Origin: Candidatus Gastranaerophilales bacterium
GTDB lineage: Bacteria; Cyanobacteriota; Vampirovibrionia; Gastranaerophilales; UBA9971
NCBI GenBank assembly: GCA_028278305.1
Contig: JANQEP010000158.1
Coordinates: 1 to 35,108 of the forward strand
Length of the DNA: 35,108 bases
Direction: 5' to 3'
Part shown: positions 15,141-33,018 of the stretch, one piece after another
How positions within the stretch are numbered: position 1 is the first letter of the stretch
How the letters are laid out: every line of letters starts with the position of its first letter
The notes under the pieces: generated by a model
Seen by the model: the letters and a program-made list of their open reading frames with translations, nothing else
Database searches by the model: none
What the model was told of the DNA's origin: nothing
Translations under genes and position numbers: made by a program

Positions 15141-16253
15141 TTAATTCAATTGAACAGGCATTATAAGACAGATTGCATCTTTCTCGTTTTCAGACCTGTA
15201 TAATACACCTGATAAAGATCCGTCCATTTCAACCAGAACATTTTCAGATTCCACAATCTTTAAAAAATCCTGAATATATCTGTAATTAAAAGCTATATCA
15301 AGACTATCATTTTTATAATCAACAGCAAACTCATCGCAGGAATCACCAAGATCCGGAGTATCAGCAGTTATCTGAAGGTTGTCCTTATTAAAGGATAATT
15401 TAACTATATTTGTTCTTTCATTAACCATTGTAGACACTCTATCTATAGAAGATAAAAATTTACTCTTATCTATTTTTGCTTTTTTACTGTTAGAAATAGG
15501 AATAAGTTGTTCATAGTTAGGGTATTGACCTTCAATTAACCTGGATGATATATACCTGTCAGTTAATTTAAATAAAATTTGTCCGTTTTTAACTGTTATT
15601 GCTACTTTTTCATCTTCTACACCGGCTACTATGTTTATAAATTCCTTTAATGTCCTGGATGGAATTATAACCGAAAAGCTTTTTGAATCTTTATTTTCAA
15701 TATCTTCCTTGATTCTTGAAAGTCTGTTTCCGTCAAGTGCAGCCATTTCAAGTATATTATCTTCTATTTTACAGAAAACCCCGCTTAATACATTATTCAT
15801 ATCATAAGTGGCAGTGGCAAAAAGAGTCTGTCTTACCGCTTTTAATAGAGGTTCAATTTCAACTTCAACAAAATCATCGGATTCAGGATATTCTATAGGA
15901 GGAAATTCACTGCTTGAAATACCTTTAATATCAAATTTTGAGCTTGAGCACTTTATTTCAACCGTATTACTTTCATTTTGCAGTTTAAAACTTACTTTTT
16001 CACTGGGCAGCTTTGAAATAATTTCAGCCAGTTTTTTAGCGGGAAGAGTAATACTTCCGTTTTCGGATATTTCCGCGGAAATATTCATTTCTACCGATAT
16101 ATCCAGGTCAGTAGCGCAAAGTTTTATTTGATTACTATCAATTGTCTGTATCAAAACATTTGATAATACAGGTTGAATTCCCCGCACTGCTGCTGCTTTG
16201 CAAACAACATTTAATGCGTTATTAATAATATCTTTTTCAGCGCTAAATTTCAT
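15141..16253 (-). CDS. dnaN: DNA polymerase III beta sliding clamp
   Basis: Beta-clamp features throughout (VLSNVLIQT, ATDLDISVE, LPAKKLAEIISKLP, SRLIEGQYPNYEQLIP, C-terminal YRSENEKDAICLIMPVQLN). ATG at 16251-16253 with upstream AGGTGAGGAG is preferred over the GTG at 16271. Confidence 0.95.
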   Translation of the reverse strand: MKFSAEKDIINNALNVVCKAAAVRGIQPVLSNVLIQTIDSNQIKLCATDLDISVEMNISAEISENGSITLPAKKLAEIISKLPSEKVSFKLQNESNTVEIKCSSSKFDIKGISSSEFPPIEYPESDDFVEVEIEPLLKAVRQTLFATATYDMNNVLSGVFCKIEDNILEMAALDGNRLSRIKEDIENKDSKSFSVIIPSRTLKEFINIVAGVEDEKVAITVKNGQILFKLTDRYISSRLIEGQYPNYEQLIPISNSKKAKIDKSKFLSSIDRVSTMVNERTNIVKLSFNKDNLQITADTPDLGDSCDEFAVDYKNDSLDIAFNYRYIQDFLKIVESENVLVEMDGSLSGVLYRSENEKDAICLIMPVQLN

Positions 16254-16317
16254 ATTCTTACTACTCCTCACCTGACTTAAAACTATTTTTTTAATTATTT
16301 TTCTAACCTAATGTTTT

Positions 16318-16454
16318 GTTAAGTTAATTTGCCGGGGTTTTTCAAAATGCCCACCCGCCCTCCCTCAGAGGTGGAAAAGGCTCCGCCTTTTCAAATCCGT
16401 ATACATTTTGAAAAACCCTCATATACAAAATTAGTCCTAAAAAATTAATTTAAC
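16318..16454. mobile_element. Nested inverted-repeat (MITE-like) element between dnaN and the DnaA-box cluster
   Basis: Outer IR GTTAAGTTAATTT / AAATTAATTTAAC; inner perfect 15-bp IR GGGTTTTTCAAAATG / CATTTTGAAAAACCC; internal hairpin GAAAAGGCTCCGCCTTTTC. Confidence 0.6.
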
Positions 16455-16484
16455 TGTACACTAATTCATTTTACTTACTAAAAC

Positions 16485-16775
16485 TATTAAATAAATAAAT
16501 TTATTTATTATATAGTAATAGTAGAGAAAGCAATTTTCTGTAGAAAAGTGTATAAAATACATTTATAGCCTGAATTTTACCTGTTCAAAACTTGTTAATA
16601 AAATGTATAAAACTAAATAATTCTTTACAGCATTGTTTTTTTTCTACATTGTTTTTCTACAAAAAATATATACTTATATACAGGTTTTGAATAGTTTTTC
16701 TACAATTAGATACATTAAAATCCATGCCCTTTATAAAATTTTACAAACTAAATAAAAACACCTGTAGAAAACTTT
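16485..16775. other. oriC: Putative chromosomal replication origin (oriC): DnaA-box-like cluster plus AT-rich region
   Basis: Five perfect TTTTCTACA sites (16539-16547 minus, 16640-16648 plus, 16653-16661 plus, 16696-16704 plus, 16763-16771 minus) upstream of dnaN; adjacent 18-bp palindrome ATAAATAAATTTATTTAT at 16491-16508. Confidence 0.65.
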
Positions 16776-16849
16776 ATAAGTTTTAATATATGGTAATCTT
16801 TATATATTAAAAAAGCATTAAAAGTTATTTTACCGGATTCAGATAAAAA

Positions 16850-17629
16850 ATGAAATTTTCTATAATAACTGTCTGTAAAGACTCGCATGGAACTGTTGAA
16901 AATACAATTTTAAGTGTATTGGGGCAATCATATAATAATTATGAATATATAATCATTGACGGAGCTTCAAAAGACAGTACTCTTGATATAATCAATAAAT
17001 ACCGTGATAAAATAACCAAAATAATCAGTGAACCGGATAAAGGGCTTTATGATGCCATGAATAAGGGAATTAAAAACTCTTGCGGTGATTATTTTTTCTT
17101 TTTAAACTCTGATGACAGGTTTTTAGATGAAAATGTTTTGCAAAAAGTAATAAGGAAAGCTGAAAATAATAAAAAAGAACTTCTTTATGGTGATCAGGTT
17201 TTTATAAACAGTGATTCAAAAGAAGTCTCAATCAGGAAGCATAATAAATTAAACAAAGTCTATCTTATAAAAAACACACCCTGTCAGCCTGCAACATTTT
17301 ATAGAAATGATGTTTTTGATAAATACGGTGATTTTGATATTAATTTTAAAATAGTAAGCGATCATGAATGGTTTTTAAGGGCTTTTTTAAAACATAACAT
17401 TTCCTGTTATTATCTTAATTTTCCCGTTACGGAATTTAATTCAGGAGGTCTTTCCACGAGCATTAAAAGGGAAAAAGAATTAAACTCAGAGAGAGAGAGA
17501 ATGTTTAGAAAATATTTTTCAGATTCTGAAAGAAAAAGACTTGAATTTTTATCAAAATACCTGAGGTGTTTTACAACTTTTGCTGTTATAAAAAATATTT
17601 TAAATCAGTTTTTCAGGTTTGAGCTGTAA
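16850..17629 (+). CDS. Family 2 glycosyltransferase
   Basis: FSIITVCKDSHGTVENTILSVLGQSYNNYEYIIIDGASKDSTLDIINKY...ISEPDKGLYDAMNKGI...FFLNSDDRF. Confidence 0.9.
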   Translation: MKFSIITVCKDSHGTVENTILSVLGQSYNNYEYIIIDGASKDSTLDIINKYRDKITKIISEPDKGLYDAMNKGIKNSCGDYFFFLNSDDRFLDENVLQKVIRKAENNKKELLYGDQVFINSDSKEVSIRKHNKLNKVYLIKNTPCQPATFYRNDVFDKYGDFDINFKIVSDHEWFLRAFLKHNISCYYLNFPVTEFNSGGLSTSIKREKELNSERERMFRKYFSDSERKRLEFLSKYLRCFTTFAVIKNILNQFFRFEL

Positions 17630-31557: not shown

Positions 31558-33018
31558 TCAGGCTTTTTTCATGTTTTGCAAAGTCCTGTAATCGTTTAAA
31601 TACAAATAACCGATAGGAATATGAACGGGCTGTTGTTCTAAGGCATTCTGCGGAATATTGGCATGATGCACCTTTGGCATAAAACTGTCAGCTTCCATCC
31701 AGGACGGCGCAAAGTAATCGTGGTCATCAGTATCGTTATACTTAAACCAGAGTTTCCCTTTATTATCATATTTATAGCCGGTTAACAGGATTTCATGCCC
31801 CTGGGGCACTATAACATTGCCGTTTTTATCAACATCTATTAAAAAACCGGTAATTATATTATGCCCCTGATCAAGGGATTTTAAAAATTGTTTTTTGGTT
31901 TGCTCAAAGTCATAAGTGTAGTTTAATACTTTGGTTAAATCATTATCCAGTTCCATATACACTATAGGAATTTTTTTACTCTGACTGTCAACTATTGACT
32001 CTACAAATGCTATTTCAAACTGGTTAAGTCCCTCACCCTCCCCGACTTCCCCGGATCTTTTGTCAGTCAGTGAATTATAAGTTTTTCTGCTTCCAAGCTG
32101 CATAAAGGCTGACTGTATAAGAACATCAACCATTGAGCGGGTATTCTTTACCCTGGAATCTTCCTGTATATCAGCTCTTAAATAGGCGTTTTTATCAGGT
32201 TTTACGGTTACTTCAACAGTATCCCAGCCAATATTCCTGAAATCAGAATTTTGCCGGGTCAAAACAGCAAGAGATTCCATCATATCAGGGGAAAGATCAG
32301 AGTATTTCAGCCTTGTTTTAACACTTTTATTGACACTGGTAAGACCTTCTACATAGCGGACGAATTCCGCGGGTCTTCTATGAGCCAGGTTAAATTCTAT
32401 ACTGGCGGCAGCGCAGGTAGAGCCGTTTATATTAAATAAGTCTGAGTGTTTAATCGGATAATTATCGCTAATATCATAAGGATTAAAGTTTTTGCTTGTT
32501 CTTGCCTGCTGGATTTTTAACTGAAGTCTTTTATTTTCCGCTTCTATGATACTTGCCATCCTGTTAGAGGGAATTTTTCCCACCTTCTGGGTTATTAAAT
32601 AAGGATCATGCAGGGTTTTTAGTGTTTGTTCAGCTATATTTTTTTTATCAAACACAGGAACTCTCGGTTCAGTCATAATTGTATAGAGGTTCTCAAGGGT
32701 TGAAGTGCCGTCGTTTGAGTCTCTTGAGAGGAGTTTTCCGTTTTTGTAGAGCTGGTTTAAAAGAACCCTGCCCTCCTGGTCCAGGTCATTATTAATTTTT
32801 GCATACATTTCCCTGATATCAGGATAGGATTTTTGAGAGAAGTAAAGCCTGTTTTTAGCGGAATTAGCATGGGCAGACATACCTGTTTTCTTACCGGAAA
32901 CAGTCTGGTTGCTGGTATAATTATTATTGGGCAGAGCTGTCTCCTGCGTATTTTTGGCAGAATTATTTTTATATTGCTCTAAATAAATATTTATAAAATC
33001 AGTCATTTTTCCTAGCAT
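31558..33018 (-). CDS. Hypothetical protein, candidate papain-fold cysteine peptidase-like
   Basis: 486-aa ORF with NGSTCAAASIEFNLAHRRPAEFVRYVEGL (candidate Cys) and, ~200 aa later, GHEILLTGYKYDNKGKLWFKYNDTDDHDYF (candidate His and Asn/Asp). Confidence 0.6.
   Translation of the reverse strand: MLGKMTDFINIYLEQYKNNSAKNTQETALPNNNYTSNQTVSGKKTGMSAHANSAKNRLYFSQKSYPDIREMYAKINNDLDQEGRVLLNQLYKNGKLLSRDSNDGTSTLENLYTIMTEPRVPVFDKKNIAEQTLKTLHDPYLITQKVGKIPSNRMASIIEAENKRLQLKIQQARTSKNFNPYDISDNYPIKHSDLFNINGSTCAAASIEFNLAHRRPAEFVRYVEGLTSVNKSVKTRLKYSDLSPDMMESLAVLTRQNSDFRNIGWDTVEVTVKPDKNAYLRADIQEDSRVKNTRSMVDVLIQSAFMQLGSRKTYNSLTDKRSGEVGEGEGLNQFEIAFVESIVDSQSKKIPIVYMELDNDLTKVLNYTYDFEQTKKQFLKSLDQGHNIITGFLIDVDKNGNVIVPQGHEILLTGYKYDNKGKLWFKYNDTDDHDYFAPSWMEADSFMPKVHHANIPQNALEQQPVHIPIGYLYLNDYRTLQNMKKA

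Follow-up and report, generated by a model that had tools for sequence, protein, structure and literature searches.

The intergenic segment at positions 16485-16775 of the window (the whole 35,108-nucleotide stretch of DNA analysed) is very probably the chromosomal replication origin, oriC, of this Gastranaerophilales bacterium, a member of the class Vampirovibrionia, which comprises non-photosynthetic relatives of cyanobacteria. A sequence-only reading had proposed as much, and the proposal is supported by the uniqueness of a DnaA-box cluster in the draft genome, its conservation upstream of dnaN and GC-skew minima in relatives. The cluster occupies an AT-rich gap (16272-16849; 578 bp, 24 % GC) between dnaN, which borders the gap as that reading had stated, and a divergent glycosyltransferase gene. 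Five exact copies of TTTTCTACA on both strands had been reported there, and we recovered exactly these five in the whole window, all within 233 bp (16539-16771) and in the strand order - + + + -. The number expected in the gap was 0.017, and at least five copies were obtained in 0 of 5000 dinucleotide shuffles. The consensus TTWTNTACA, which is the standard TTWTNCACA box with T replacing C at base 6, matched eight sites in the gap against 0.35 expected, whilst TTWTNCACA itself, the canonical box with C at base 6, was absent from the gap. The three additional sites were all TTWTATACA (16549-, 16604- and 16674+) and were missing from the sequence-only reading, as was a run of DnaA-trios at 16513-16524. 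Across the draft genome (160 contigs, 2.17 Mb, 90 % complete) we counted 56 copies of TTTTCTACA and found no second place with three copies inside 1 kb, so the 9-mer is not equally dense elsewhere. Nor does a better cluster accompany dnaA, a single-copy gene located on another contig (C37) and followed by recF, as no TTWTNYACA box was present within 3.4 kb around it. The features of the region are listed in Table 1.

Table 1. Elements of the probable origin and flanking features, in window coordinates
Feature	Position	Strand	Remarks
dnaN, DNA polymerase III beta clamp	15141..16271	-	Three Pfam beta-clamp domains; TIGR00663 match 15147-16253
Dispersed hairpin repeat	16335..16418	.	Perfect 15-bp terminal inverted repeats; between dnaN and origin
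All-AT palindrome, 20 bp, AATAAATAAATTTATTTATT	16490..16509	.	In AT-rich stretch flanking trios; AT-rich flank kept in relatives
DnaA-trio run TAG-TAA-TAG-TAG, TAGTAATAGTAG	16513..16524	+	Same position relative to first box in relatives
DnaA box 1, TTTTCTACA	16539..16547	-	14 bp from trios; in every family member with a contig covering the region
DnaA box 2, TTTTATACA, weaker	16549..16557	-	Tandem with box 1, 1 bp apart; same place in G005
Variant site in DnaA-box slot, TTTTGAACA	16582..16590	-	Alignment with relatives
DnaA box 3, TTTTATACA	16604..16612	-	Same place in G005
DnaA box 4, TTTTCTACA	16640..16648	+	Exact match
DnaA box 5, TTTTCTACA	16653..16661	+	Exact match
DnaA box 6, TTATATACA	16674..16682	+	TTWTNTACA match
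DnaA box 7, TTTTCTACA	16696..16704	+	Exact match
DnaA box 8, TTTTCTACA	16763..16771	-	Present in G005
Family 2 glycosyltransferase gene	16850..17629	+	Right-hand neighbour, divergent; outside origin

Moving away from dnaN, the elements follow one another as the hairpin repeat, an AT-rich stretch containing the palindrome, the trios, a 14-bp spacer, the tandem box pair at 16539/16549 and six further boxes in both orientations up to 16771. The arrangement of trios, spacer and box arose in 1 of 5000 shuffles. A basal unwinding system is characterized by three or more trios (3'-NAN-5', best GAT) lying no more than 16 bp from a DnaA box (PMC8287927), and the segment 16513-16547 contains four trios at a distance of 14 bp. 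The AT palindrome previously noted is real, though it measures 20 bp (16490-16509) rather than 18 bp (16491-16508), and is presumed to be the duplex unwinding element. Under the mechanism we propose, DnaA domain IV would bind the TTWTNTACA boxes and the tandem pair would load DnaA onto the neighbouring trios, which read 3'-GAT-5' going away from the box. The resulting oligomer would stretch the trio strand and melt the adjoining palindrome region, where the helicase would be loaded, whilst the remaining boxes would raise the local concentration of DnaA. The module has tandem boxes, a short spacer, TAG-type trios and an AT-rich stretch in common with the Bacillus subtilis incC region and its basal unwinding system (PMC6669920, PMC8287927), but in B. 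subtilis dnaA adjoins the region and the box is TTATCCACA, and the spacer of the Gastranaerophilales module is not GC-rich. The oriC regions of the photosynthetic cyanobacteria Synechococcus elongatus PCC 7942, Anabaena PCC 7120 and Cyanothece ATCC 51142 likewise lie upstream of dnaN with dnaA elsewhere, and they too are AT-rich with boxes in both orientations (PMC4674748). In several sampled cyanobacteria our sequence comparison additionally revealed a run of trios preceding two boxes in tandem.

The nearest named relatives of the window were Candidatus Gastranaerophilales MAGs. Within the family, boxes and trios were present upstream of dnaN in all five relatives with long enough contigs (G003, G004, G005, G008 and G009), a count that leaves out G001 and G006, whose contigs end before the region. 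Alignment of these sequences showed that the slot at 16582 is occupied by TTTTGAACA in the window and G004 and by TTTTCTACA in G005, G008, G009 and G011. Such GA-type sites therefore behave as variant boxes, and the notion that they are recognized by another protein was dropped because the two forms alternate at one slot between relatives. GA-type sites also occurred in G198 and G075, and G307 and G342 probably have them too. A strict trio-plus-box pattern matched 18 of 286 genomes of the order, all of them carrying TGTAGAAAA though TGTGGAAAA was also allowed, and looser inspection identified arrays of TTTTCTACA upstream of dnaN in the majority of the Gastranaerophilales genera sampled. TTWTCTACA boxes upstream of dnaN extended to families of other Vampirovibrionia orders; many class members outside the order carried TTTTCTACA or TTATCTACA, and the box letters in the complete class genome G287 were TTATCAACA. 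The comparison of dnaN upstream regions suggested at the outset thus found the cluster conserved across order and class, beside dnaN or dnaA. Four order members (G029, G034, G083 and G055) had no DnaA-box cluster upstream of dnaN; the origin is therefore not always located there and may have moved in their genera. Members of family f8 (G319, G335 and G357) display the common bacterial layout of dnaA, boxes and dnaN, which indicates that the separation of dnaA from the origin in Gastranaerophilales was probably derived within the class. Paired modules could be compared between a cyanobacterium with Asp433 (G368; TAGTAGTAGTAGTAGGTGCTGTGGAAACTGTGGAAAA) and a class member (G288; TAGTAGTAATAGTAGGTGCTGTAGAAATGTAGAAAA), the DnaA of the latter not being found in its draft. 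These data suggest that the ancestor of the cyanobacterial phylum already had an origin linked to dnaN and containing trios.

The C-to-T change in the box was likewise borne out, but not as a peculiarity of this lineage: judged from the sequences sampled, the variant box is a class-wide trait that accompanies loss of the equivalent of Escherichia coli D433. The DnaA encoded in the draft matched Pfam PF11638, PF00308 and PF08299 above cut-offs (DnaA_N, AAA+ and C-terminal HTH), confirming it as a member of the DnaA family. Its recognition-helix signature is RKHTT, as against RDHTT in E. coli, B. subtilis and Mycobacterium tuberculosis and KDHTT in Aquifex, so that Lys-His-Thr-Thr stands in place of the canonical Asp-His-Thr/Ser (E. 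coli 433-435). Base-specific contacts have been described for residues 432-435 and 438-439 (PMC5043019; see also PMC7561715), and D433 has been placed at base 7, which adjoins base 6 (PMC8235120). We compared residue 433 and box type in 59 DnaA/origin pairs. All eight cyanobacteria outside the class combined Asp433 with CC boxes (TTWTCCACA), whereas the 51 Vampirovibrionia pairs included neither Asp433 (41 Lys, 7 Arg and one each of Asn, Gln and Thr) nor a CC box, and 27 of the 51 were clearly CT-dominated. The photosynthetic cyanobacteria with a dnaN-linked oriC differ from the present bacterium in pairing C at base 6 with Asp433 rather than T with Lys. A DnaA tree built with domain IV left out accords with Asp having been lost once, on the class stem. 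The residue/box association represents approximately one joint event, and a contrast inside the class, in which Lys and other residues were set against CT and other boxes, offered too few independent pairs. Separately, family f2 (G010, G028, G034 and others) carries a one-residue deletion just before the DnaA signature (FF-NKKHTT).

We consider it reasonably likely that the altered box and the disappearance of the near-invariant Asp433 (replaced by Lys, Arg, Gln, Asn or Thr) together constituted a switch of specificity on the class stem, with the unwinding module left unchanged. Base 6 would have changed from the C of standard TTWTNCACA to T, or to A in some relatives, and the polarity of the contact may have been swapped, with Asp433 (a hydrogen-bond acceptor) beside C6 (amino, donor) giving way to Lys (donor) beside T6 (keto, acceptor); Lys433 is, however, also found with A6 boxes. 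It is possible, though we rate it lower, that the two changes are unrelated lineage markers, base 6 having drifted to T in AT-rich genomes and Lys433 tolerating any base there; this would oppose the specificity switch only, not the identification of oriC. Such independence would fit the one joint event on the tree and the single pairing of Arg433 with CT (G340). It would also fit the occurrence within the class of Lys433 with both CT and GA boxes, which shows that base 6 is not determined by residue 433 by itself. It accords less well with the conservation of position 433 across bacterial classes and its contacts with bases (PMC8235120, PMC5043019), or with the fixation of T6 in G288 and f8 members, both copies of the tandem pair carrying it in G288, and AT drift alone does not account for the loss of Asp in 51 of 51 proteins. 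Thermotoga maritima offers a precedent in which a diverged box and domain IV substitutions coexist with retained TAG trios (PMC10316083, PMC6669920) and where our alignment likewise places a residue other than Asp at 433 (Ser in 2z4r); a chimera carrying the T. maritima domain has already been studied in B. subtilis (PMC6669920). The T. maritima box differs in being a 12-mer, AAACCTACCACC, as opposed to a 9-mer changed from the standard at base 6. We set aside, as ambiguous, an alignment of that box with CTAC at bases 5-8.

Few protein-DNA pairs in bacteria are as conserved as DnaA and its box, and rewriting an essential interaction that involves many sites is difficult. If a switch did occur, the replication initiator acquired a different recognition code throughout a bacterial class, yielding naturally orthogonal initiator/origin pairs, and a class with both sides changed would be a concrete case for how such a switch arises and for which residues determine specificity. 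These origins could escape origin finders tuned to TTATCCACA or TTTTCCACA, and the variant box could be used for Melainabacteria genomes. Our literature search returned no report linking TTTTCTACA or Melainabacteria with oriC, although one may exist elsewhere.

Cumulative GC skew bears on whether the cluster marks the start of replication. There was no clear inflection in the 35-kb window or in an 81-kb contig of G003, and skew therefore supports the window by homology. In two long contigs of the same order the minimum lay upstream of dnaN: at 323,045 in G015 (a 400-kb stretch, of which 72 kb read as N), where dnaN starts 310 bp away at 322,735, and at 131,099 in G137 (260 kb), where it starts 273 bp away at 131,372. 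Skew in the complete genome G287, sampled at 20 places, was negative before and positive after dnaN (1,737,812) and reversed again between 0.57 and 0.66 Mb, roughly opposite dnaN. In G031 the plain GC minimum was 177 kb distant, and agreement came from the keto walk alone, which reached to within 7 kb of dnaN (306.7 versus 313.7 kb). The sites could in principle be DnaA boxes that merely regulate transcription of dnaN and the divergent glycosyltransferase gene, with the chromosome starting elsewhere: their setting is a divergent promoter region, DnaA is known to act as a transcription factor and some order members have no cluster at dnaN. We find this improbable given that a module of trios and AT-rich DNA has no role in plain repression, that three relatives have their skew minimum there and that the draft contains no other cluster, including near dnaA. 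Less probable still, to the point of being scarcely credible, is that the repeats are iterons bound by some protein other than DnaA, such as a plasmid or phage initiator or a regulator; the 9-mer is not a textbook DnaA box, but it differs by one letter from TTTTCCACA, the same module, order and trios occur in cyanobacteria for which experiments have shown binding of DnaA to TTTTCCACA boxes (PMC4674748), and the gene context is chromosomal throughout the class.

The repeat between dnaN and the origin is probably not part of the latter. Its terminal inverted repeats are GGGTTTTTCAAAATG and CATTTTGAAAAACCC, its hairpin scored z = -5.7, and the draft genome contains 43 matches to it, many of them at the ends of contigs; it resembles a MITE-type element that contributes to fragmentation of the assembly. 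The distance from dnaN to the trios is shorter in G004 and G005 than in the window. Rfam returned no match anywhere in the window, and two of its predicted proteins, one of 486 aa (31558-33018) and a Cys-rich, repeat-bearing one of 189 aa (649-1218), had no Pfam match. The start codon of dnaN is probably the ATG at 16253. A second dnaN with 71 % identity was identified in the draft (G000:C57:4721-5836) on a contig near-identical to G006:C45, with the same coordinates and score, and this contig is probably a contaminant in the MAG. Second, far weaker dnaN-like genes (E about 1e-41 to 1e-47) were also observed in G028:C3, G047:C22, G052:C5, G152:C67 and G307:C5.
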